A DNA stretch of 39,449 nucleotides from Rhodospirillaceae bacterium (GTDB lineage Bacteria > Pseudomonadota > Alphaproteobacteria > SMXQ01): the NCBI GenBank assembly GCA_947474495.1, contig CANJIM010000027.1, positions 1-39,449 of the forward strand, in the 5' to 3' direction. Made by a program: the position numbers and the translations under genes. Shown piece by piece: positions 26,658 through 39,449 of this stretch. The notes beneath the pieces are model-generated. The model was not told the origin of the DNA. It ran no database searches and was given only the letters and a program-made list of their open reading frames with translations. Each line of letters starts with the position of its first letter. Position 1 is the stretch's first letter.

Positions 26658-27764
26658 ATGCTGAATCTTATGGCCTCGCCTCGTCGCGCGGCTTTCCGCC
26701 GCACTTTGCGCGAGGGCATGTCGGTTCTCGCTGTGTCGCGCGCGGCCGTTCGGCATTGCGCGCATTTGAGCCTGGGGCTGCTCGCGCTCTGCGCAACGGT
26801 CACGACCGCCCAGGCCGACGACTTTTACAAAGGCAAACGGATGAGCATGATGGTCGGCGCCGGCCCTGGGGCCAGCTTCGACATTTATGCTCGCCTCGTC
26901 GCTGACAATATCGGCAAGTACATCGAGGGCAAGCCGGTGTTTATCGTGGAAAATCGTCCCGGCGCGGGATCGCGCCTGGCGATGAATCACGTCTATAACG
27001 TCGCCGCGCAGGACGGCTCCGTCGTCGGCATGATGGTCAACACGCTGGCGCTCGACGAGTTCATCCATCCGGAACGGTCGCAGCAGATGGATCTCGCCAA
27101 ATTCAAATGGATCGGCAGCGCCGCCTCGCTCAGCAGCGCCATCGTCGTCTGGCATACGTCGCCGGTCAAAAGCATCGAGGACGCCAAGAAGATTTCGATT
27201 CCGCTCGGGTCGGTCTCGCGCACCTCTGAATCTTTCATGATGCCGAGCATCATCAACGAGATGCTGGGCACGAAGTTTAAGCTGGTCGGCGGCTACGTCA
27301 CCTTCACGGAAATCACCCTCGCGGTGCAGCGCGGCGAAGTGAACGGGCAGGGCGGCGGCTGGGGCGGCGTTCTCGCCGCGACGCCGCAATTCGTCGAGAG
27401 CAAGGAGCTGATCCCGATCGTTCAGGTCGGCGTGAAGAAGGATCCGACGATTCCCGGGGATGTGCCGCTGCTCAGCGATCTAGCGCAAACCGACGATCAG
27501 AAAGCCGTCTTGGGGCTGCTCACCAAAGCCACGGCCTTTTCGCGCCCCTTCATGATGGGTCCCAAAGTGCCGGATGAGCGCGTCGCCATCGTCCGCAAGG
27601 GCTTCGCCGACATGACGTCCGATCCGGCCTTCGTGAGCTATGCGGCGAGCAAGAACATCGAAATCTCGCCGATCATGGGCGAGGAGATCACCAAGGCGCT
27701 CGTCGAACTGCAAAGGGATTTCAAACCGGAATATGCCGCCCGGTTGCGGGCCGCGCTCGACTAG
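26658..27764 (+). CDS. Tripartite tricarboxylate transporter TctC/Bug-family binding protein
   Basis: A 368-residue periplasmic binding protein with the family pattern: KRMSMMVGAGPGASFDIYAR at the first strand, VENRPGAGSRLAMNHVYNVA, and a C-terminal VRKGFADMTSDPAFVSYA. The signal region is unusually long, about 54 residues, with the hydrophobic core at about 38-50 and cleavage near AQA. A clear AGGAG site six bases before 26658 supports this start, but a later ATG at codon 21 would give a normal-length signal. It converges on a cupin gene through a hairpin. No TctA or TctB gene is nearby, so its transporter partner is unknown. Confidence 0.92.
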   Translation: MLNLMASPRRAAFRRTLREGMSVLAVSRAAVRHCAHLSLGLLALCATVTTAQADDFYKGKRMSMMVGAGPGASFDIYARLVADNIGKYIEGKPVFIVENRPGAGSRLAMNHVYNVAAQDGSVVGMMVNTLALDEFIHPERSQQMDLAKFKWIGSAASLSSAIVVWHTSPVKSIEDAKKISIPLGSVSRTSESFMMPSIINEMLGTKFKLVGGYVTFTEITLAVQRGEVNGQGGGWGGVLAATPQFVESKELIPIVQVGVKKDPTIPGDVPLLSDLAQTDDQKAVLGLLTKATAFSRPFMMGPKVPDERVAIVRKGFADMTSDPAFVSYAASKNIEISPIMGEEITKALVELQRDFKPEYAARLRAALD

Positions 27765-27839: not shown

Positions 27840-28304
27840 TTAGCGCGTCCCGTCGACGTGCAGGCCAGTGCCGACGGCGTAGCGTTGCGGCGACGCGTCG
27901 GTGCGGCCGCTCTTCAGGCCGGGCTCGGGCGATGCCGCGACCTGCAGCAGCTCAAGATCGTCATCGCCGGAATTCTCGAACCAGTAGCGCGAGAAGCGCG
28001 GCGTGATGATGCCCTCGCCGGGGCCGAACTCGCCGAACAGCACGTCCTCGGGACCATAGAACTTCACGCGGCCGCTGATCACGAACCAGAAGGTCTCGGC
28101 ATGCGTGTGGTAGTGCAGGTTGTTCTCGCCGCCGTTCTTTTTCACGATCTGCACGGCGCCGCGGATATGCTCGCCGCGACCGATCTTGACGAAGCCTTTG
28201 GTCGTGATCTCCGCCGTGGGCTTCTTGTAGCTGAAGATCGAGACCTTGGATTCGGCTTCGAGATGACGTGCTTCCAGATCGTCGGGCTTGTGCTGCTCGT
28301 TCAT
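27840..28304 (-). CDS. Cupin-domain protein
   Basis: A 154-residue single-domain cupin. The first motif lies in NLHYHTHAETFWFVISGRV, with candidate metal ligands H64, H66, H68 and E70, and the second half shows FGPGEGIITPRFSRYWFENS. A GGGAGA site precedes the ATG. The family includes small dioxygenases, isomerases and decarboxylases acting on ring-cleavage products, as well as sugar enzymes. Association with TctC genes on both sides suggests a role in the same organic-acid catabolism, without a specific reaction. Confidence 0.85.
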   Translation of the reverse strand: MNEQHKPDDLEARHLEAESKVSIFSYKKPTAEITTKGFVKIGRGEHIRGAVQIVKKNGGENNLHYHTHAETFWFVISGRVKFYGPEDVLFGEFGPGEGIITPRFSRYWFENSGDDDLELLQVAASPEPGLKSGRTDASPQRYAVGTGLHVDGTR

Positions 28305-29209: not shown

Positions 29210-29351
29210 AGTGAATAGCGCAGGAAAAGGGCGCTGCGACCGACACTCTCTAGACCGCCTCCACGGCGGTTTGGCGGGTGGCGGCGCAAAAAAGACGACA
29301 GGGACGGCCTGCCGGCGCGCATAGACGCGTCGCTGCTCGGAAAGGGAGATG

Positions 29352-30392
29352 ATGAAAAAACTGACCATGACGATGGCGGCGCTTGCCCTTTGCTTGGCGG
29401 CATTCCAAGGCAGCCAGGCCAGCGCGCAGAACGTCGAAGGCGCATTCAAAGGTAAAACCGTCCGAATCCTAATCCCCACCGGGCCGGGCGGCGACCGCGC
29501 GCTTTATACGCTGCCGTTTGCCAGCTATTACGGCCGGCATATTCCGGGCAATCCGACCGTTATCGCGGTGTTCATGCCCGGCGCCGGCGGCTCGCTTGCG
29601 CTCAACAACATCGCCAACGTCGCGGCGCCGGACGGCTTAACGATCACCACACCGCTCGGCTCTGTACTGAATGCGCAGATCATCGGCGATGAGTCGGTGA
29701 AGTACGACGCGCGCAAATTTAAGTGGATCGGCCGCACCGATTCCAGCACACGCGTGCTGACCGTTTCCAAGACGGTGACGGCGCAGACGCTCGATGATTT
29801 GCGCAAAACTGAAATCATCATCGGCGCGGTCGGTCAGGCCTCTGATACGGCGACCAACGCCTATTTCATGAACAAGTTGTTCAACACGAAATTCAAGGTG
29901 ATCGCCGGTTACGGCGCCGCGAACAAGGTGGTGCTGGCGATGCTGTCGGGAGAAACCCAAGGCTCGTTCGGCACCTGGAACAATGTCAGCACCAACCACG
30001 CACAGGCGCTGCGGGATGGCGATATCCGCCCCTTGCTGCAGATCGCCCTCACAGCCGACCCGACGATGCCGAACGTGCCGCTGCTGCTCGATATGGCGGA
30101 AGGCGAAGAGGCCAAGCAGCTGGTGCGCATCATGTCGTCATCGACGCTGATGGGGCAGTCCTTCGCCGGCCCGCCGGCCCTGCCGGAGCCGATCCTGACC
30201 GCGTTGCGCCGCGCGTTCGATGCGACGATGGTCGACAAGGAATTTGTCGAGAAGATGAACAACATCGGCGTCAAATTCACGCCAATGACTGGCGAAGACC
30301 TGACCAAGCAAGTCGACCAGATCATGAACACCTCACCGGAACTGGTCGAACGCTACAAGGCGATCAGTGGCGAAGGCGGGGCTGCGCCTTAA
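29352..30392 (+). CDS. Tripartite tricarboxylate transporter TctC/Bug-family binding protein
   Basis: A 346-residue periplasmic protein with a standard signal peptide (MKKLTM, hydrophobic core, cleavage near ASA|QN at about 25). It shows VRILIPTGPGGDRALY, MPGAGGSLALNNIANVA and a C-terminal LRRAFDATMVDKEFVEKM. Two adjacent ATGs (29349 and 29352) follow GGGAG very closely; I take the second. The leader is about 140 bases long, contains an ACCGCC/GGCGGT hairpin at 29254-29270, and begins at a LysR-type module shared with the monooxygenase promoter, so the gene is probably under the same regulator. The partner permease is not in the window. Confidence 0.92.
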   Translation: MKKLTMTMAALALCLAAFQGSQASAQNVEGAFKGKTVRILIPTGPGGDRALYTLPFASYYGRHIPGNPTVIAVFMPGAGGSLALNNIANVAAPDGLTITTPLGSVLNAQIIGDESVKYDARKFKWIGRTDSSTRVLTVSKTVTAQTLDDLRKTEIIIGAVGQASDTATNAYFMNKLFNTKFKVIAGYGAANKVVLAMLSGETQGSFGTWNNVSTNHAQALRDGDIRPLLQIALTADPTMPNVPLLLDMAEGEEAKQLVRIMSSSTLMGQSFAGPPALPEPILTALRRAFDATMVDKEFVEKMNNIGVKFTPMTGEDLTKQVDQIMNTSPELVERYKAISGEGGAAP

Positions 30393-30429: not shown

Positions 30430-30462
30430 ATCCCGCTTATCGGATGAGAGCAGGAGATGGCG

Positions 30463-30849
30463 ATGGCCAAGACGATGATCGTGACGGAAAAGCAGATCGC
30501 CCTGACCCCCAGCACGGGGAAGGTCGGCGGCCTGGAATCCATGCATCTCATGCCGGAGTTTCCCTACATCGTCTATCTCGACTCGAAAGCGCATCACTAC
30601 GCGCGCGTGCACTCTCACAGTGAGCCGGAGATCATGGTGGTGGTATCGGGCCGCATGATCTTCAACGGCGTCTGGTGCGGCGTCGGCAGCGTGATCCACG
30701 TGCCGGCGAACGAAGAATATTGGTATGCGACAGGTGAGGACCGCTGCATGGTGGTTCTTGCCCGTCTCGCCGGGCGCGGCGTGATCACGATTGCGCGGGA
30801 GGAACCTGCGTTCGAAGCCGAGCGCGCCGCCGACTATGTGCCGAATTGA
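30463..30849 (+). CDS. Small cupin-domain protein
   Basis: A 128-residue single-domain cupin. The motif ARVHSHSEPEIMVVVSGRM gives candidate ligands H50, H52 and E56. The second part, GVGSVIHVPANEEYWYAT, lacks the usual second-motif histidine at the expected place, so metal binding may be incomplete. The frame has an ATG at 30457, but AGGAG is six bases before the ATG at 30463, which I prefer. It probably shares a transcript with the TctC gene before it and the CDGSH gene after it. The reaction is unknown. Confidence 0.85.
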   Translation: MAKTMIVTEKQIALTPSTGKVGGLESMHLMPEFPYIVYLDSKAHHYARVHSHSEPEIMVVVSGRMIFNGVWCGVGSVIHVPANEEYWYATGEDRCMVVLARLAGRGVITIAREEPAFEAERAADYVPN

Positions 30850-30881
30850 TCTCTCGCACGCCGAGCCGGAGAGACCAGGAC

Positions 30882-31139
30882 GTGTCGATAGATTATCCGT
30901 TCCGCACAGCCCTCAAGGCGGACAAGCGTATTTTTTGGTGTAGTTGCGGCCTCAGCTCGAAACAGCCATATTGCGACGGCTCGCATAAAGGCGCGCCGCT
31001 CAAGCCGTTGGCCCATACGGAACAGATTGATATCACCGTTGCCCTGTGCGGCTGCAAGAAAACTCAACGGCCGCCCTATTGCGATGGCAGCCATGTGGAT
31101 GACCGTAGGGTCCTCGGCGAAACCGCCGAAAAGGCCTAA
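30882..31139 (+). CDS. Twin CDGSH iron-sulfur domain protein
   Basis: An 85-residue protein with two complete CDGSH motifs: C20-x-C22-x8-C31-x3-H35 and C56-x-C58-x8-C67-x3-H71. Each should hold a [2Fe-2S] cluster with one histidine ligand, and both in one chain resemble the class of MiNT/Miner2-like proteins. It could carry electrons or act as a redox sensor. The frame opens upstream at a TTG overlapping the cupin stop, but a GTG at 30882 with GGAGAG eight bases upstream is the better start. It is 32 bases downstream of the cupin and convergent with lysR. Confidence 0.9.
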   Translation: MSIDYPFRTALKADKRIFWCSCGLSSKQPYCDGSHKGAPLKPLAHTEQIDITVALCGCKKTQRPPYCDGSHVDDRRVLGETAEKA

Positions 31140-31145
31140 CGTCTG

Positions 31146-32108
31146 TCAGGAGGCGACGGCTTCGCGCCGGCGCGGCTTTTTAAGCGCCCTCGGACGCGGT
31201 GCTTTCGCAGTCTTCCATTCGGCACAGGCTTCGAGGATCAGGTGACGCAGCGTCGTCGCGCTGCGCGACAATTGCCGCCCGCGCCGTTCGATGATGCCGA
31301 CGGTGCGCGTCACCACCGGATCGTAAAGCGGCACCACGGCGACCGACGGATGCTTCTGCAGGCTGCGGCTGAGCCTCGGAATGATCGAGAGGCCGAGGCC
31401 GGCTTCGACGAGGCCAAACGAGGTCGCCAGATGCCCCACCTGGAACGACCAATTGAGCGTCAGATTGGAGCGCGCCAAGGCTTGATCGACCACCATGCGG
31501 TTGTCGCTCTTCTGACTGACGATGAGCGGATATTGCACGAGGTCGCGCCAGCGCACCTTGTCGCAGGCGGCCAATGGATGGTCGGTGCGGCAAGCCAAGG
31601 CAAATTCGTCGTCCATGATGGGCGTGAACTTCAATTCGGGCCGTGATGCGCCCATCGAATTGATACCGAATTCCGCTTCGCCTCGGGCGATACACTCCAG
31701 GCCTTCGGCCGGTGTCACGTCGCGGATTCGGATGTGGATGTCGGGATAATCGGCGGTGAAGCGTTTGAGCACATGCGGCAGAAAGGCCGAAGCCGCAGTG
31801 GGGATCGCGGCGATGGTCAAAACGCCGGACGGCTGCACGCCGTGATCGCCGAGACTGAAGATGCAGTCGTCAAATTCGCGCACCATGCGGCGAAAGCCCG
31901 GCTCCAATTCGGTGCCGATGCGCGTCGGCGCGACATGACGCGTGCTGCGTTCGAGCAGCTTTGCGCCGAATGTCTCTTCCAGGGCCTGAATGCGGCGCGT
32001 CAGCGCCGGTTGCGACATGTTCAATGCTTCAGATGCCTTGTGGAAGCTCCGCATGTCGAAGATGGCTAGGAAAAGCTTCAGATCGAGGATTTCACAATTC
32101 TTGCGCAT
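31146..32108 (-). CDS. LysR-family transcriptional regulator
   Basis: A 320-residue regulator with an N-terminal winged helix-turn-helix (about 8-65; FHKASEALNMSQPALTRRIQ is the recognition region) and a C-terminal periplasmic-binding-like effector domain. It is divergent from the NicC-like monooxygenase gene, the classical arrangement in which LysR proteins activate the neighbour and repress themselves. Its first codons lie inside the 75-bp module found again at 29135-29209, so it probably also acts on the TctC gene at 29352. The effector is probably a pathway intermediate; this is inferred. The C-terminal tail is rich in Arg and Lys. Confidence 0.95.
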   Translation of the reverse strand: MRKNCEILDLKLFLAIFDMRSFHKASEALNMSQPALTRRIQALEETFGAKLLERSTRHVAPTRIGTELEPGFRRMVREFDDCIFSLGDHGVQPSGVLTIAAIPTAASAFLPHVLKRFTADYPDIHIRIRDVTPAEGLECIARGEAEFGINSMGASRPELKFTPIMDDEFALACRTDHPLAACDKVRWRDLVQYPLIVSQKSDNRMVVDQALARSNLTLNWSFQVGHLATSFGLVEAGLGLSIIPRLSRSLQKHPSVAVVPLYDPVVTRTVGIIERRGRQLSRSATTLRHLILEACAEWKTAKAPRPRALKKPRRREAVAS

Positions 32109-32231: not shown

Positions 32232-33419
32232 ATGTCCAGCCAAAAGCCAGAGATCGCCATCGTCGGCGCCGGCATGGGCGGCCTGACGGCCGCCGCCACC
32301 CTTCTGCGGCGCGGGTTCAAGGTTCAGGTTTATGAACAGGCCGAGCGTTTCCTGCGCATCGGCGCCGGCATCCAGATGGCGGCCAATCCGATGAAGGTGC
32401 TGCGCGCTCTGGGATTGGAAGACCGCTTGCGGCAGACCGCGTTCCAGCATCGTGCGCGCTTGCATCGCGATTACGATACCGGCCGTATCAACTCCGAGTT
32501 CGATATGTACAGCGTCGAGCAGAAGTACGGCGCGCCGCATCTGATGATGCATCGTGGCGATCTTCATGCGGCGCTGCTCTCTCTGCTGCCGCCGGACATC
32601 GTGCATCTTAACAAGAAGATGAAGGGCTTCACGCAGGATGCCGATGGCGTCACCTTGAATTTCGTCGACGGCACGCAGGCGCGTGCCGACGCCCTGGTGG
32701 GCGCCGATGGCGTGCACTCGATCGTCCGCAGCCAGCTGTTCGGCAATGAATCGCCGAACTACACGGGCCGTCTCGCCTACCGCGCGACTTTCCCGGCCCA
32801 TCTGCTCAAGGGCGTCGATATCGGCGACGTCGCCACCAAATGGTGGGGGCCCGATCGCCATATCGTCATCTATTACATCACGGCGAAGAAGGACGAAGTC
32901 TACTTCACGACGAGCATTCCCGCGGAGAAGCCCGATCTCGAATCCTGGTCGCTCAAGGGCGATCTCGGCGAATTGCGCGCGGCGTTCAAGGATTTCCATC
33001 CTGACGTCCGCGCCGTGCTGGACGCCTGCCCCGACACGCACAAATGGCCGATCTACGACCGCGAGCCGCAGACGAGCTGGGGCAGGGGCCGTGTCTATCT
33101 GCTGGGCGATGCCTGCCATCCGATGACGCCCTACATGGCGCAGGGCGCCGCCTCGGCGATCGAAGACGCGGCGGTGCTGGCGCGCTGCTTCGAGGGGGTC
33201 GATAAAGCCGGCATCAACGGCGCGTTCCGTCAGTACGAGGCGACGCGGTTGCCGCGCGCATCGAAAATCCAAAGCTTGTCGCATCTCAACAAGCGCGAGT
33301 GGATGCGCGTGGACGCCGCCGCGCCGGAAGCCGCCACCAAGGAAAAGGCCGATCCTGGTTGGGTCTACGGCTATGACGCCTGGACCGCACCGCTCGCCAA
33401 GCCAGAGATGGCCGTTTAA
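32232..33419 (+). CDS. FAD-dependent monooxygenase, NicC-like (6-hydroxynicotinate 3-monooxygenase family)
   Basis: A 395-residue class A flavoprotein hydroxylase with GAGMGG (12-17) for the dinucleotide, GADGVHS (157-163) and GDACHPM (292-298) for FAD. From memory it shares unusually specific stretches with Pseudomonas NicC: HRGDLHA, KWW..DRH (with H210 and Y214 kept), MAQGA...AIEDAA and DPGWVYGYD near the end. The NicC histidine of the GAGIH segment is Q48 here, so the substrate may differ. Hydroxylation with NAD(P)H and O2 of a hydroxylated pyridine or benzoate carboxylate, perhaps with loss of CO2, is expected. It is the first gene of the LysR-controlled cluster. Confidence 0.85.
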   Translation: MSSQKPEIAIVGAGMGGLTAAATLLRRGFKVQVYEQAERFLRIGAGIQMAANPMKVLRALGLEDRLRQTAFQHRARLHRDYDTGRINSEFDMYSVEQKYGAPHLMMHRGDLHAALLSLLPPDIVHLNKKMKGFTQDADGVTLNFVDGTQARADALVGADGVHSIVRSQLFGNESPNYTGRLAYRATFPAHLLKGVDIGDVATKWWGPDRHIVIYYITAKKDEVYFTTSIPAEKPDLESWSLKGDLGELRAAFKDFHPDVRAVLDACPDTHKWPIYDREPQTSWGRGRVYLLGDACHPMTPYMAQGAASAIEDAAVLARCFEGVDKAGINGAFRQYEATRLPRASKIQSLSHLNKREWMRVDAAAPEAATKEKADPGWVYGYDAWTAPLAKPEMAV

Positions 33420-33478
33420 GTCTCCGCACAACGGCCCCTGAAGGCCGATCAAGACGCAATAGGACAGGGAAAAGCAAA

Positions 33479-34528
33479 ATGCACAGCAACCCGACGATGA
33501 TCACCGGGGATTTGAAATATATTCGCTTGCCGTTCACCACCAACGTGAAGCCCGGCATGCAGGTGCTGGTTGTCACCGATACGGCACATGATCCGCGCGT
33601 GTGGCAGGTGATCATGAGCACCATCAGCGAGATGGGCGCCGAGCCCACGCTGGCGATGTTCGATCCGCGCCCGGCCGACTATTTCGATCCGCCGAAGGCC
33701 GTCTGCGAGGCCATGCTGAAGGCAGACGTCAACGTGCTGCTCTGCACCACGGGCATGCTGCACGCCAAGGCGAACTTCGAAGCGATGCGCGCCGGCGTGC
33801 CGGTGATCTGCATGGACGGCGGGATGACGCTGGAGATGTTCCAGTCCGGCGCCGTCACCGAAGATCAGAAGCAGATGGCGGTGCGCCAGCATTACGTAGC
33901 CACCAACATCTTCGGTCGGGACGCCAAGATGGTGCGCGTAACCACCAAGTTCGGCACCGACTTCACCTATAGCGTCGAAGGCCGCATCCATGTTCCGGCG
34001 CTGCCGGGCGACGATTTCGTGCCCTACAAGATCACCTCGATGACGCGTAACAAGAACTTCCCGCGTCCGCGCTTCCTCTACCCGAACGGCGAATTCAACA
34101 TTCCGCCGGTCGAAAACTCGGCCAACGGCAAGCTCGTCATCGACCTGTCGATGCACCAGTTCGACCGCCTGAAGAGCCATATCGAGCTGACCGTGAAAGA
34201 CGGCATCATCACCGGCATCGACGGCGGCCCGGAAGCCTGGACCTTGCGCAACTATCTTGAGAAGTTCGGCGACGAGAATTGCTACGTCTGCCCGGCGGAA
34301 GCCTCGGTCGGCATCAATTCCAAGGCCGTGGTGCGCGGCGTGCAGCGCGAAGATAAGAACATCATGGGCTCGATGCATTTCGGCATCGGCACCAACATCG
34401 ACGTCGGCGGCACTATTCATTCGAACATCCACCTCGACGGCGTGGTTCTCGAGCCAACGGTCTATGTCGATGGCGACAAGCGCATGGAGCATGGCCGCTT
34501 CCTGCGCAACGTCGAAGGACCGATGTAA
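33479..34528 (+). CDS. NicX-like (2,5-dihydroxypyridine 5,6-dioxygenase/M29-like) enzyme
   Basis: A 349-residue protein of the fold shared by M29 aminopeptidases and NicX. The blocks RVTTKFGTDFTY, LVIDLSMHQFDRLKSHIEL and DGIITGIDGGPEAWTLRNYL run parallel to NicX as I remember it. NicX binds iron through two His and one Asp. The pair H318 and D320 in NIHLDG is present, but the first histidine position falls in CPAEASVGIN, probably E274. It may be a ring-opening dioxygenase with altered metal site or a hydrolase of the same fold. It lies 59 bases after the NicC-like gene, with a GGACAGGGA ribosome-binding region. Confidence 0.75.
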   Translation: MHSNPTMITGDLKYIRLPFTTNVKPGMQVLVVTDTAHDPRVWQVIMSTISEMGAEPTLAMFDPRPADYFDPPKAVCEAMLKADVNVLLCTTGMLHAKANFEAMRAGVPVICMDGGMTLEMFQSGAVTEDQKQMAVRQHYVATNIFGRDAKMVRVTTKFGTDFTYSVEGRIHVPALPGDDFVPYKITSMTRNKNFPRPRFLYPNGEFNIPPVENSANGKLVIDLSMHQFDRLKSHIELTVKDGIITGIDGGPEAWTLRNYLEKFGDENCYVCPAEASVGINSKAVVRGVQREDKNIMGSMHFGIGTNIDVGGTIHSNIHLDGVVLEPTVYVDGDKRMEHGRFLRNVEGPM

Positions 34529-34556
34529 GCAAGCGGTTCGGCAGAAGAGCCAAGCG

Positions 34557-35336
34557 ATGCGCTTCCGTCTGACGTCAGGAAGGAGCGTCAGCTACTCGGT
34601 GCGCGGCACCGGGCTGCCGATCGCCTTGTTGCATCCGATAGGCCTTTGCGGAGATTTCTGGGAGCCGGTGGTCGAGCGCCTCGCGTCTGATTACCGGCTG
34701 CTGGCCATCGATTTGCCAGGCCATGGCGACAGCGATGTCTCGGCCGGTGCCTACACATTGGACGGCATCGCCGGCGACTGCCTGGAAATGTTGGGCGTGT
34801 TGACAGGCCCTAGCATCGTTGTCGGCTGCTCCATGGGTAGCGCGGTGGCGCAATCGATGGTGGTTAAGGACGCCGGCATGGTGAAGGCAGCCGTATTCGC
34901 CAACGGTTCGGGCCCCCGCACCGGTGGTCGCACGGATGTCTTGGAACAACGCGCGGCGCTTGCCGAGCGCGGCATGACTAACATTGTCGATGACAACATC
35001 GACAGATGGTTCAGCAAAAGCTTCGCGGCGTCTCATCCGGACGTCGTCGCCAAGGTCTCCGGCTGGCTGCTGAACGGCGATCCAACGGTTCACGCCTGGG
35101 GCTGGCGCGCGCTGGCCGGACGCACCGACGCCTACGCCAAGATTCGCGTGCCGGTTCTCACCATTGCGGGTTCGGAGGATGCCTCTGCGTCGCCGGCCTC
35201 GGTCAAGGCGCTGGCCGATGTCTTGCCGGATGCGCGCTACGTCGAGCTGGCTGGCGCCGGACATATGGCGCCGATCGAACAGGCGGACGCGTTCGTCGCC
35301 GCCGTGCGCAGTTTTTTGAAGGATGTCGGACTTTAA
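34557..35336 (+). CDS. Alpha/beta-hydrolase, NicD/enol-lactonase-like
   Basis: A 259-residue cytoplasmic alpha/beta-hydrolase with the catalytic triad S92 (GCSMG elbow), D208 (GSEDAS) and H236 (GAGHMAP), and the LPGHGDS segment. Its size and pattern fit 3-oxoadipate enol-lactonases and NicD, the N-formylmaleamate deformylase that acts just after NicX. The order NicC-like, NicX-like, NicD-like supports hydrolysis of the ring-cleavage product. A longer frame from 34257 is a shadow of the preceding gene; the ATG at 34557 gives the normal start, though its ribosome-binding site is weak. Confidence 0.88.
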   Translation: MRFRLTSGRSVSYSVRGTGLPIALLHPIGLCGDFWEPVVERLASDYRLLAIDLPGHGDSDVSAGAYTLDGIAGDCLEMLGVLTGPSIVVGCSMGSAVAQSMVVKDAGMVKAAVFANGSGPRTGGRTDVLEQRAALAERGMTNIVDDNIDRWFSKSFAASHPDVVAKVSGWLLNGDPTVHAWGWRALAGRTDAYAKIRVPVLTIAGSEDASASPASVKALADVLPDARYVELAGAGHMAPIEQADAFVAAVRSFLKDVGL

Positions 35337-35491
35337 GAACGCCTAGAGACGATAGAGACAGGGATGGCCGTCAGAAGCGCAACTGAAGACGCTTCGTAGC
35401 TTGGATAAGCGAGTGAAGAGCGATATCGGCCGGTCCGAAGGACTGATGAGTCGAAATTTTGCCAATTCAGAAAGAACTGGGAGACTTTATA

Positions 35492-36523
35492 ATGAAGACC
35501 TTGCGTGTGGTGGGAAGCTTGGCCGTTGTGGCGGCTGCCATGGCGTTGCCGGCGCCGGCTTTCGCACAATCCGTCGAGCAGTTTTACAAGGGCAAGCAGG
35601 TCAAGCTGCTGGTGGGCTCGGGCGCGGGCGGCGGCGGCGATGTCTTCGCGCGCATCTTCGCTAAGCATCTGCCGAAGCACCTGCCGGGCGCGCCGACCAT
35701 CGTCGTGCAGAACGTGCCGGCGGCCGGCGGCGTTGTCGCTACGGCGCAGCTCTACAATACGCAGCCGCGCGACGGCACGGCGATCGCCGCGGTAATGCGC
35801 ACCATTCCGATGATGCCGCTGCTGGTCGAAAAAGACGTCAACTTCGATTCTCGCAAGCTGAACTGGCTCGGCAGCCTGAACAAGGAAAGCAATGTCATCA
35901 TCGTGTGGCATACCTCTCCGGTGCAAACGTTCGATGACGTTTTCAAGCGCGAGACCATCGTCGGCACCACCGGCGGCAGTTCGGACAGCAACGTCTACGC
36001 GCTGCTACTGAATCAGACGCTCGGCACGAAATTCAAGATCGTCGGCGGTTACCCCGGCGGTCCCGATATCGATCTCGCCATGGAGCGCGGCGAAGTCGAA
36101 GGCCGCGTCAGCATCACCTGGACGTCTTTGAAGAGCGGCCGTTCGGAATGGCTGCGCGACAAGAAGGTGCGGGTGCTGGCGCAGATGGCTTTGACCGCGA
36201 ATCCGGAACTGCCGGGCGTTCCCAACGTCCTCGATCTGGTCAAGGATCCCAAGGATAGCCAGGTCTATGAATTCCTCTTCGCGCGCCAAGAAGCCGGGCG
36301 CCCGTTCGTCGCCCCGCCGGAAGTGCCGGCGGACCGTCTCGCCGCGCTGCGCAAGGCCCTGGCCGATGTCGCCAACGACAAGGCCTTCGTCAGCGAAATC
36401 GAAAACGGCGGCGGCTCGATCGAGCTACTGACCGGCGAGGAGACCCAAGCCCTGGTCGAGAAGTACTACGCGACGTCTCCCGACGTCCTCAAGGCGGTGC
36501 GCGCCGCCTTGGACCCGACCTGA
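35492..36523 (+). CDS. Tripartite tricarboxylate transporter TctC/Bug-family binding protein
   Basis: A 343-residue periplasmic binding protein with a textbook signal peptide (MKTLRVVGSLAVVAAAMALP, cleavage near AFA|QS at about 24), then VKLLVGSGAGGGGDVFAR and VVQNVPAAGGVVATAQLY. GGGAG eight bases before the ATG at 35492 fixes the start; the frame extends eleven codons further upstream without a ribosome-binding site. TATAAT overlaps the start codon, probably by chance. It sits inside the nicotinate-like cluster, so it is the best candidate for binding the substrate of that pathway. No membrane partner is encoded here. Confidence 0.93.
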   Translation: MKTLRVVGSLAVVAAAMALPAPAFAQSVEQFYKGKQVKLLVGSGAGGGGDVFARIFAKHLPKHLPGAPTIVVQNVPAAGGVVATAQLYNTQPRDGTAIAAVMRTIPMMPLLVEKDVNFDSRKLNWLGSLNKESNVIIVWHTSPVQTFDDVFKRETIVGTTGGSSDSNVYALLLNQTLGTKFKIVGGYPGGPDIDLAMERGEVEGRVSITWTSLKSGRSEWLRDKKVRVLAQMALTANPELPGVPNVLDLVKDPKDSQVYEFLFARQEAGRPFVAPPEVPADRLAALRKALADVANDKAFVSEIENGGGSIELLTGEETQALVEKYYATSPDVLKAVRAALDPT

Positions 36524-36539
36524 GCGACGGGAATATCCC

Positions 36540-37307
36540 ATGGCCAGGGAAACGTCCCAAGCCCTGCAGCCCGAACTGTCCGGCAAAGTCGCCATCGTCA
36601 CCGGCGCGTCGCGCCGGATGGGGAAGGCGATCGCCTTGAGGTTGGCGGAGGCGGGCGTCGTCGTGGTGGTGAACGCGAAGACTTCGGCGGCGAGCGCCGC
36701 CGAAGTCGTCCGCACCATTGAAGGGCGCGGCGGCAAGGGGATTTCCGTGCTAGCCGACGTGACCGACCCGGAGGCCGTGCGTGGCATGGTCGAGAAGACC
36801 GTTGGCGCTTTTGGGCGCATCGACATTCTCGTCAACACCCTTGCCATCCGCCATCACGATTCCTTGGCGGAAACGACGCTGGCCTCCTGGCATGAGGTGC
36901 TGGCGAGCGTACTCGACAGCACTTTTCTTTGCGCCCAGGCCTGCGCGCCGCATTTGATCGCCAGCAAGGGCGCCATCGTCAATATCGGCGGCGCGTCGGC
37001 GCATTTCGGACAAAAGCACCATGCGGCGGTGATGACCGCCAAGATGGGCCTGATCGGCCTCACCCGTGCGCTCGCGCTCGATCTCGGCCCCGACGTGGTG
37101 GCCAATTGCCTTATTCCGGGCCGCATCGAAGCGTCGGAAGACCGCCGATCCGCCACGCCGCGCTATCCGATGGAGCGAATTCCCGCCGGCCGCGCTGGCA
37201 GCCTCGAAGAAGTCGCCGAAGCCGTTATCATGCTGTGCAATCCGCGCAGCCGCTTCATCAACGCGCAGGCGATCCACATCAGCGGCGGCATGCTGTTCGG
37301 GATTTAG
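36540..37307 (+). CDS. SDR-family protein lacking the catalytic Ser-Tyr pair
   Basis: A 255-residue Rossmann protein with the SDR cofactor motif TGASRRMG (21-28), DVTD (73-76) and a closing INAQAIHISGGMLFG. The active site is altered: the Tyr-x3-Lys pair reads V164-MTA-K168, and the usual Ser position is Gly in NIGGASAHFG; the NNAG motif is NTLA. I recall similar Tyr-less members in TctC-rich proteobacteria, so this is a subgroup rather than a mutation. It may bind NAD(P) but reduce poorly or act by another mechanism. It starts 17 bases after the TctC stop. Confidence 0.85.
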   Translation: MARETSQALQPELSGKVAIVTGASRRMGKAIALRLAEAGVVVVVNAKTSAASAAEVVRTIEGRGGKGISVLADVTDPEAVRGMVEKTVGAFGRIDILVNTLAIRHHDSLAETTLASWHEVLASVLDSTFLCAQACAPHLIASKGAIVNIGGASAHFGQKHHAAVMTAKMGLIGLTRALALDLGPDVVANCLIPGRIEASEDRRSATPRYPMERIPAGRAGSLEEVAEAVIMLCNPRSRFINAQAIHISGGMLFGI

Positions 37308-37342
37308 TAGGTCAGCGCTTCTCTAAGTTAAACGGGTGAGAC

Positions 37343-38725
37343 ATGGGCCACGGCGGCCAAGAGATCAGCGGCGAGATGCGGACCCTCAGCACCTTCATAG
37401 CCGAAGCGCGCAACGCAACCTTGCCCGCACACGCCGTGGAAGCGGCCGAACATCACATTCTCGATACGCTGGCGGCGATTATCTCTGGCACGCGGCTGCA
37501 GCCCGGCTGGCTGGGTATCGGCTATGCCCGTGACCTGGGCGGCGTGCCGGAAGCCTCGATCCTCGGCACGCCCATCGTGACAAGCGCCGCCACCGCCGCG
37601 CTCGCCAACGGCATCTCGGCCCATTCCGACGAAACCGACGATTCGCACTTCACGTCGCGTACCCACCCGGGTGCCGCCATCCTTCCGGCGGCCCTGGCGG
37701 TCGCCGAGCTGCGTCATGCCGGCGGCGGCGAGTTCTTGCGCGCGGTGACCGCCGGCTACGATGTCGGCTGCCGTCTCGTTCATGCCCTCGACATGCGCGG
37801 CTTCGCCGCGTTGCACCGTAGCTGCCACGGTTTCGGCGGCACCTTCGGTGCCGGCGTCGCCGCCGGCGTGCTGCATGGCTTTGATGCGGCGCAGATACGC
37901 CATTTGCTGTCCTACTGCGCGCAGTCGGCGTCCGGCTGCGGCGCTTACATGCATGACCGCGGCCATATCGAGAAAGCCTTCGTCTATTCTGGCAAGCCGG
38001 CGCAGAGCGGCGTCATGGCGGCCGGCATGGTGGCAGCGGGCTTCACCGGCGCCGACGACGTATTCAGCGGCGACCGCAATTTCCTCGATGCCTATGCGGC
38101 CAAGCCGGATCGCGCGGCTTTGATCGACGGCCTCGGCGAGCGCTATGAGATCGTCCGGACCAACATCAAGAAATGGTGCGTCGGCTCGCCGATCCAGGGG
38201 GCGCTCGACGGCATCGCGGCGATCCGCGAAGCGCGCGCCGTCCTGGCCGACGACGTCGATCATGTGCGCGTGCATTTGGCGCCGGCCAACTTGAAGACGG
38301 TGGATAACCGGCCGATCCCGAACGTGAACATTCAACATCTCGTCGCCTTGATGTTGATTTCCGGCACGGTCGGCTTCGCCGAATCGCATGATCCGGCCTT
38401 GATGGACGATCCTGCGCTGAGCGCCCTGCGCAAGCGCGTGAGCCTGGTGCCGAGCGACGAGTTGGATCGCGCCAAGCCGCCGCGCCAAACCATCGTCGAG
38501 ATCGCCCTGAAGGACGGCAGCCTTTTGTCCCAGCGCGTTGTGGCGGTGCGCGGCACGGCGGACAATCCGATGACGCGGGACGAGGTCGCCGCGAAGGCGC
38601 GTGATCTCATGACGCCGATCTTGGGCCAGGATCGCTGCGCGCGCCTGATCGATCAGGTCTTCGCGCTGCAGGGCGTCGCCGACATGGCGTCCCTGCGGCC
38701 TTTGCTGACGGCGGATGCGCCGTGA
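37343..38725 (+). CDS. MmgE/PrpD family protein (first of a pair)
   Basis: A 460-residue protein of the MmgE/PrpD fold, which includes 2-methylcitrate dehydratase, cis-aconitate decarboxylase and iminodisuccinate epimerase. Family blocks are ISAHSDETDD, RTHPGAAILPAALAVAE, AGYDVGCRLVHAL, and KKWCVGSPIQGALDG in the C-terminal lobe. The chemistry is usually dehydration, isomerisation or decarboxylation of a di- or tricarboxylic acid. The gene begins 36 bases after the SDR gene, and its last codons overlap the GTG of a second PrpD-type gene, suggesting a two-protein enzyme or consecutive steps. Confidence 0.9.
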   Translation: MGHGGQEISGEMRTLSTFIAEARNATLPAHAVEAAEHHILDTLAAIISGTRLQPGWLGIGYARDLGGVPEASILGTPIVTSAATAALANGISAHSDETDDSHFTSRTHPGAAILPAALAVAELRHAGGGEFLRAVTAGYDVGCRLVHALDMRGFAALHRSCHGFGGTFGAGVAAGVLHGFDAAQIRHLLSYCAQSASGCGAYMHDRGHIEKAFVYSGKPAQSGVMAAGMVAAGFTGADDVFSGDRNFLDAYAAKPDRAALIDGLGERYEIVRTNIKKWCVGSPIQGALDGIAAIREARAVLADDVDHVRVHLAPANLKTVDNRPIPNVNIQHLVALMLISGTVGFAESHDPALMDDPALSALRKRVSLVPSDELDRAKPPRQTIVEIALKDGSLLSQRVVAVRGTADNPMTRDEVAAKARDLMTPILGQDRCARLIDQVFALQGVADMASLRPLLTADAP

Positions 38726-39449
38726 CGCTGGCCATCGAACAACTCGCCGCGTGGAGCCTGGCGCCGCACGAAGCGTTTCGCTCGGACCTGGCGCAGCGCC
38801 AGGCCCGACTCCTGCTGCTGGATGTGATCGGCTGCGCCTACGCGGCGATCGAGAGCGGCGCAGTCGATGCCGTTCTGGGGCTGACCGACGACATCGGCGG
38901 GGCGCCGCAGGCCACCGTGATCGGCCGCGCGGGCAAGACCTCCGTGCCGAACGCGGTGTTCGCCAACGGCGCCTTGATCCGCGTGCTCGACCTGAACGAC
39001 GTGATGTTCGCCGAGCGCGACGGCAAGCTCGCCGTCGCCGGCCATCCGAGCGAGAACATTCCGGCGGCTCTTGCCGTGGCCGAGGCCTTCGGTCTCACGG
39101 GCCGCAAGATGCTCGAAGCCGTCGTGCTCAATTATGAAGTTTACGGCCGCTTGCGCGAATTGATACCCGATACAGGCGCCTGGGATGGCGCGTCGGCGTC
39201 CGGCATGGCGGCAGCGGCGATAACGGGACGGTTGCTCGGCCTCGATTCCGAACGCCAGGCCCATGGGCTGGCGCTGGCGGCGGCGCGGTCGCCGACGCCG
39301 AAGATCGTGCGCAACGGCGAAATATCCGCCGCCAAATCCCTGGCCAACGCCTTCGCCATGCAAAGCGGCGTGCATTCGGCTTTGCTGGCGGCGAAGGGCG
39401 TGACGGGGCCGCTCGAAATTCTCGATGACCGCAAGGCCGGGCTTTTCCA
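38722..39449 (+). CDS. MmgE/PrpD family protein (second of a pair, 3' end outside window)
   Basis: The frame opens with GTG in a GTGA overlap with the preceding stop and stays open for 242 codons to the window end. It shows DVIGCAYAAIESGAVDAV, GHPSENIPAALAVAEAFG, a YEVYGRLREL segment and RNGEISAAKSLANAFAMQ, all typical of the MmgE/PrpD N-terminal helical domain. About 200 residues should be missing. It differs clearly from its neighbour, so the two are not a recent duplication. It probably forms a complex with it or catalyses the next step. Confidence 0.9.
   Translation, partial: MTLAIEQLAAWSLAPHEAFRSDLAQRQARLLLLDVIGCAYAAIESGAVDAVLGLTDDIGGAPQATVIGRAGKTSVPNAVFANGALIRVLDLNDVMFAERDGKLAVAGHPSENIPAALAVAEAFGLTGRKMLEAVVLNYEVYGRLRELIPDTGAWDGASASGMAAAAITGRLLGLDSERQAHGLALAAARSPTPKIVRNGEISAAKSLANAFAMQSGVHSALLAAKGVTGPLEILDDRKAGLF

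Follow-up and report, generated by a model that had tools for sequence, protein, structure and literature searches.

A conserved catabolic gene cluster related to the nicotinate system, with a NicX-like protein carrying M29-type residues, in a Rhodospirillaceae bacterium

Does a row of genes that looks like the lower nicotinate pathway degrade nicotinate, or something else? The question is raised by positions 32232-39449 of a contig from a Rhodospirillaceae bacterium, where genes for a NicC-like flavin monooxygenase (FMO), a NicX-like metalloenzyme and an alpha/beta hydrolase (ABH) are followed by genes for a TctC-type protein, a short-chain dehydrogenase/reductase (SDR) and two MmgE/PrpD proteins. 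The window, that is, the whole stretch of 39,449 nucleotides that was analysed, is the complete contig C27, ending at 39449, of an assembly of 2.99 Mb in 127 contigs. We find that the cluster is real, conserved, uncharacterised and catabolic, and that it is related to the nicotinate system without being a member of it. Since the NicX-like protein appears to carry a peptidase metal site in place of the NicX iron site, the route would be a relative of nicotinate breakdown and no copy. We see about an even chance that the genes are an operon for the breakdown of an aromatic or heteroaromatic carboxylate, in which a two-metal hydrolase of the M29 fold opens either the ring itself or a cyclic product. 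The genes are as follows.

31146-32108, minus strand: LysR-type regulator (PF00126 and PF03466), divergent from the cluster; the orthologue in the Rhizobiales locus L013 is 63% identical and in the same place
32232-33419, plus strand: group A FMO of the NicC sister clade (best PDB match NicC; tree and motif table)
33479-34528, plus strand: NicX/M29-fold metalloenzyme, here NicX-like (residues E205, E274, H300, H318 and D320; tree; predicted fold)
34557 (ATG)-35336 (stop), plus strand: ABH on the PcaD/esterase side, nucleophile motif GCSMG
35492-36523, plus strand: TctC-type periplasmic solute-binding protein (PF03401, 49.5 bits)
36540-37307, plus strand: SDR with Val for the YxxxK tyrosine, of a Tyr-less subfamily adjoining PrpD1 homologues
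37343-38725, plus strand: MmgE/PrpD family protein 1 (PrpD1; closest solved structures those of iminodisuccinate epimerase and cis-aconitate decarboxylase)
38722-39449, plus strand: MmgE/PrpD family protein 2 (PrpD2; PF03972), incomplete at the contig end

A preliminary description made from the letters alone had listed this gene set at these places, and the frames from FMO to PrpD1 are indeed intact and co-directional; both of the PrpD proteins that it named are present, although the second is cut by the contig end. The gaps from FMO to PrpD2 measure 59, 28, 155, 16, 35 and -4 bases, and a single transcript is therefore plausible. Sites resembling promoters or terminators did not exceed the frequency seen in shuffled sequence.

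The NicX-like protein and its predicted metal site

At the default threshold, neither Pfam nor NCBIfam gave a match to the NicX-like protein. NicX, the 2,5-dihydroxypyridine 5,6-dioxygenase, was its sole match in a PDB sequence search (E 1e-8), and its identity to full-length NicX proteins is 19-24%. An AlphaFold model (predicted local distance difference test 91.7, predicted template modelling score 0.88) gave significant Foldseek matches in the PDB only to NicX (template modelling (TM) score 0.67-0.68) and to M29 aminopeptidases (TM 0.57-0.62). As modelled, the protein has the overall fold of NicX (TM 0.68, E 1.2e-21), whose structure 7cn3 is the only full-length match of its size.

The residues tell the two families apart. 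NicX binds Fe(II) through His265, Ser302, His318 and Asp320, each of them essential (PMC7910607), while the catalytic set of M29 peptidases is EEHYHD (PMC7023490). In an alignment of about 40 sequences, in window numbering, the NicX proteins from genuine nic clusters have F205, H274, L/M300, S302 and HxD, whereas the window protein and all aligned relatives have E205, E274, H300 and G/A302, with HxD kept in their close clade. The window protein thus shares H318 and D320 with NicX, as well as a position after an FMO gene, but has E274 for H265 and G302 for S302, so that two of the four iron ligands differ; the preliminary description had noticed only the change at the first. E205, E274, H300, H318 and D320 align with the catalytic E, E, H, H and D of M29 enzymes (compared with the M29 peptidase of locus L079 and with AmpS and AmpT), and the first three of these residues are absent from NicX. 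The likeness to the M29 metallo-aminopeptidases AmpS, AmpT and PepS (TM about 0.6) has its bounds: the window protein is shorter and sits in a catabolic cluster. In the tree, seven NicX rows form a 100/100 clade and the window protein belongs to a separate clade of 16; the long-branch warnings that this tree raised bring no conflict with the residue table.

PMC7356986 quotes an earlier proposal, in which NicX is a modified aminopeptidase minus one metal site. Judged by its residues, the window group looks like relatives that retained the ancestral ligand set, and we propose its NicX-like protein as a ring-opening or cyclic-amide hydrolase. Within the same genome the gene is single-copy, and no M29 match was found. 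Outside the close clade, a distant NicX-like branch (L030, L031, L033, L035, L037-L039, L041 and L008) carries R and E where the HxD ligands would be, and PrpD and SDR genes often adjoin it. On a Natronosalvus plasmid (L007, 9959-17101), the gene for a haloarchaeal NicX-like protein, in which all five of the M29-type residues are present, is followed by ABH, SDR and MmgE/PrpD genes, an archaeal gene set that resembles the window cluster.

The monooxygenase and the alpha/beta hydrolase

The closest solved relative of the FMO is NicC of P. putida (335 bits to 5eow and 337 bits to 8uiq in the PDB search), a group A FMO to which it is 43% identical. As reference we used NicC proteins whose genes lie in genuine nic clusters, next to genes for NicD, NicE, NicF or NicAB; they come from plasmids of Rhizobium, Mesorhizobium, Pararhizobium, Pantoea, Azospirillum and Pseudomonas, and from Burkholderia and Caballeronia. 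Ten NicC proteins form one 100/100 clade. The window FMO falls outside it, in a neighbouring supported set with L013 (73-74%), Rhizobium and Sinorhizobium (57-58%) and metagenome-assembled genomes (MAGs) of Hyphomicrobiales (50-55%), which is the closest sister group of NicC within the sample. Among the NicC active-site residues His47, Cys202, His211, Tyr215 and His302, this set keeps the equivalents of H211 and Y215, which bind the substrate, and has Q for H47 (Q48 in the window) and Y for H302; one of its MAG members has F adjoining the Y215 equivalent, and the window FMO also has A for C202.

The preliminary description had pointed to the altered GAGIH motif as a sign of another substrate. 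The motif is indeed GAGIQ in the window FMO and GAGIH in NicC (5eow); the sequence of 8uiq has GAGIQ. Aspergillus HxnX, which is genetically required for the 6-hydroxynicotinate step, has Gln at the His47 position (PMC9304392), and Q48 is therefore weak evidence for a new substrate and by itself compatible with 6-hydroxynicotinate. The FMO likely hydroxylates an aromatic or heteroaromatic carboxylate, with or without decarboxylation. Indole-3-carboxylate monooxygenase (PMC6692525) was weighed as another candidate function. A Caballeronia plasmid (L045, 5090-9631) carries a true NicX with NicE-, NicD- and NicF-like genes, yet its FMO falls outside the NicC clade, which makes it likely that a different substrate feeds 2,5-dihydroxypyridine there.

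In the PDB, the hydrolase matches PcaD and esterase structures at about 100 bits, against 38 bits for the "Deformylase" entry 4l0c. It scores 26-35 bits with NicD of nic clusters and 104-106 bits with PcaD. NicD forms its own 100/100 clade with the motifs VPGITSPA and GHSMGA; the window hydrolase lies outside it and has LHPIGLCG and GCSMGS. With TIGR02427 (PcaD, 3-oxoadipate enol-lactonase) it reaches 161.1 bits, below the cut-off of 255.85. By sequence it is PcaD/esterase-like, neither NicD nor a certified PcaD, and the NicD-like label given to it at the outset has to be dropped. In all, two of the three labels fail. What is supported is that the FMO is in the NicC sister group and that the second enzyme shares the NicX fold; both proteins lie outside the reference clades.

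Conserved neighbourhood, proposed steps and alternatives

A genome scan with the NicX-like family gave 32 loci, 18 from the close clade (239 kb) and 14 distant relatives that served as control (265 kb). ABH homologues occur at ten of the 18 close-clade loci and FMO homologues at nine, against none and one of the 14 controls, respectively. A UbiD decarboxylase, a molybdenum hydroxylase large subunit and an enoyl-CoA hydratase-like protein are each found at 5/18 and 0/14. Locus L013 is syntenic, with LysR-FMO-NicX-like-ABH followed further on by TctC genes, SDR and PrpD1 (protein identity 55-84%). With the order kept in L013 and counts that differ sharply from the control, the gene association exceeds chance, which bears out the earlier suggestion of an undescribed cluster. 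A literature search for a ring opener of the M29 type, and for PrpD and TctC within clusters for aromatic compounds, turned up no matching paper. Distribution is patchy: at E <= 1e-30, family members occur in 9 of 385 genomes of the class, and in the thinly sampled order (11 genomes) only this genome has a NicX-like gene above threshold. Orthologues are present in Shinella lacus and Pelagibacterium lacus, and Shinella lacus, Propylenella binzhouense and Nocardiopsis sp. ATB16-24 are cultivable carriers.

Loci with a window-type FMO lack UbiD and those with UbiD lack a window-type FMO, the FMO of L029 being of another branch. The NicX-like proteins of L018 and L019 are 94.5% identical, yet their neighbours are of the two kinds. 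Other company is also kept by close relatives: cytochrome P450 sets (L027 and L028) and hydantoinase genes (L024). The Nocardiopsis locus has genes for a P450, a ferredoxin and a ferredoxin reductase, and homologues of this P450 and reductase are found in Streptomyces triticisoli. We considered the furoate (Hmf) pathway for the loci with UbiD and molybdenum hydroxylase and rejected it, no coenzyme A synthetase being among the annotated neighbours.

From the observed gene content, clade membership, residues, predicted fold and conserved neighbourhood, we infer the substrate and each reaction. The substrate would be an aromatic or heteroaromatic carboxylate, because NicC-type FMOs and UbiD are both able to remove a ring carboxylate. 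The FMO would hydroxylate the ring, probably ipso to the carboxylate and with loss of CO2. The M29-fold metalloenzyme, with its predicted two-metal ligand set, would then hydrolyse the hydroxylated ring (as a lactam tautomer) or a cyclic amide product without O2, and the PcaD-like hydrolase would act next, on an enol-ester, enol-lactone or acyl bond. UbiD and the molybdenum hydroxylase appear to stand in for the FMO in other genomes. Hydrolytic opening is what we would infer from ligands, predicted fold and neighbourhood taken together. Only tentatively do we go further, to an uncharacterised route of Alphaproteobacteria and actinomycetes in which an intact two-metal M29-fold enzyme, a hydrolytic sister of the NicX dioxygenases, opens the ring without O2, and the first step is taken interchangeably by FMO or by UbiD together with molybdenum hydroxylase.

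Several observations weigh against the proposed operon and its reactions. The M29 residue Tyr352 has no counterpart in the window protein, which leaves five of the six catalytic residues, and PF02073 (Peptidase_M29) gives no match to it, while 16 of 18 relatives match weakly (E <= 1, best 7e-15). None of the cluster proteins reaches a curated function cut-off. The nearest FMOs outside MAGs (57%, on Rhizobium and Sinorhizobium plasmids) belong to LysR-FMO-ABH-major facilitator superfamily (MFS) sets without a NicX-like gene, so that the product of the FMO is not necessarily tied to the substrate of the NicX-like protein. The mutual exclusion of FMO and UbiD is suggestive only, because many contigs are short. 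Finally, KpiC is a metallo-hydrolase fold acting as an extradiol dioxygenase (PMC7356986), and ligand type is thus no proof of hydrolysis. The kpi cluster of Arthrobacter sp. IN13 (KpiA, an FMO; KpiC; KpiB, an ABH) has the same plan as the window and as nic, namely FMO, metallo-hydrolase fold and ABH, but its substrate is 4-hydroxypyridine and KpiC is an amidohydrolase-fold dioxygenase of another fold family (PF01979).

With this plan in common, and NicX as the closest solved fold, the cluster could work in a nic- or kpi-like manner with enzymes that are members of neither: the FMO would make a dihydroxylated heterocycle, the NicX-like protein would be a dioxygenase with different ligands, and the ABH a deformylase. 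We find this doubtful, as mutation of H265 or S302 abolishes NicX activity and the window protein has neither, the hydrolase is not in the NicD clade, and a genome search returned no convincing NicE (best E 0.009) and only a NicF-like isochorismatase (39%) on another contig, C55. The M29-type catalytic residues, and the P450 and hydantoinase genes beside close relatives, would also suit an amidase or peptidase that frees a ring acid from an amide or amino-acid conjugate before FMO and ABH act; given the missing Tyr352, a size and fold closer to NicX than to M29 and a context with neither peptide transporter nor peptidase, we hold such a role to be improbable. Least of all do we expect a merely divergent lower pathway for nicotinate or 6-hydroxynicotinate. 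The identity of the FMO to NicC speaks for it, as does a 6-hydroxynicotinate enzyme that works with Gln in place of His47, but all three enzymes are outside the NicC, NicX and NicD clades (each 100/100), the phylogenetic outcome that the preliminary description had itself named as telling against its proposal. Genuine nic clusters examined have nicAB/nicEF-type genes; as that description had said, nicE, nicF and nicAB are absent among the window genes (NicAB was sought in the window only). Its central idea, that the gene order follows nicotinate chemistry, is not supported: the second enzyme lacks the H/S/H/D iron site that NicX needs, and the hydrolase is nearer to PcaD and esterases.

The adjoining module and the meaning of the family

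TctC, SDR and PrpD may form an adjoining module that takes up and processes a di- or tricarboxylic product or co-substrate. We treat it as a second, separate organic-acid module, which may serve products of the ring pathway, because SDR and PrpD are also found without the FMO: SDR and PrpD1 occur together without a window-type FMO in L037 and on a Pacificitalea plasmid (L063), the latter with additional Tct transporter, tartrate dehydrogenase and PdxA genes. The SDR lacks the catalytic Tyr of a classical SDR, as described before, and has Val at the YxxxK Tyr position both in the window and in L013; homologues beside related PrpD genes in L033, L037 and L063 also lack the Tyr. PrpD1 is homologous over its full length to MmgE/PrpD enzymes, the closest solved being iminodisuccinate epimerase (2hp3, 110 bits) and cis-aconitate decarboxylase (73 bits), but is paired with a Tyr-less SDR. 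Both PrpD proteins stay far below the NCBIfam prpD (2-methylcitrate dehydratase) cut-offs, PrpD1 with 32.6 of 950 bits and the incomplete PrpD2 with 39.5 of 458 bits. The missing part of PrpD2 was sought elsewhere in the assembly, but no contig-start fragment supplied it, and in L013 no PrpD2 follows PrpD1. PrpD and TctC had prompted the idea of a route from citrazinate to cis-aconitate, for which we found no paper and nothing specific in favour. Elsewhere in the genome (L080; C51:6496-16523), a PrpD1 paralogue (56.6%) lies with an ornithine-cyclodeaminase-like gene, TctC and a molybdenum hydroxylase large subunit.

Three different TctC-type proteins are encoded within 10 kb (26658-27764, 29349-30392 and 35492-36523), and no TctA/TctB permease gene was recognised between them. 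Short proteins beside TctC genes match Cupin_2 (27840-28304, minus strand) or are cupin-like by eye without a Pfam match (30457-30849, plus strand). Between the second TctC gene and the LysR gene, a small protein with two CDGSH iron-sulphur motifs (PF09360; 30882-31139, plus strand) was not found in the syntenic locus L013. We had considered the cupin-like and CDGSH genes at 30457-31139 as further members of the cluster, for which this lack of conservation of the CDGSH gene gives no support. Further upstream is an amidohydrolase (PF01979; 23817-25037, plus strand), a homologue of which adjoins the NicX-like gene in Propylenella (L023, 12115-13263).

Public records label members of the NicX-like group "aminopeptidase", and give the name "leucyl aminopeptidase" to some true NicX proteins; a catabolic pathway family is thus hidden behind a peptidase name. 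A residue rule, E/E/H versus F/H/L-M together with S302, separates true NicX from look-alikes and can be used in annotation. If the two-metal reading is true, the group would represent an intermediate state between the M29 peptidases, which use two metals for hydrolysis, and the NicX dioxygenase, which uses one iron and O2.

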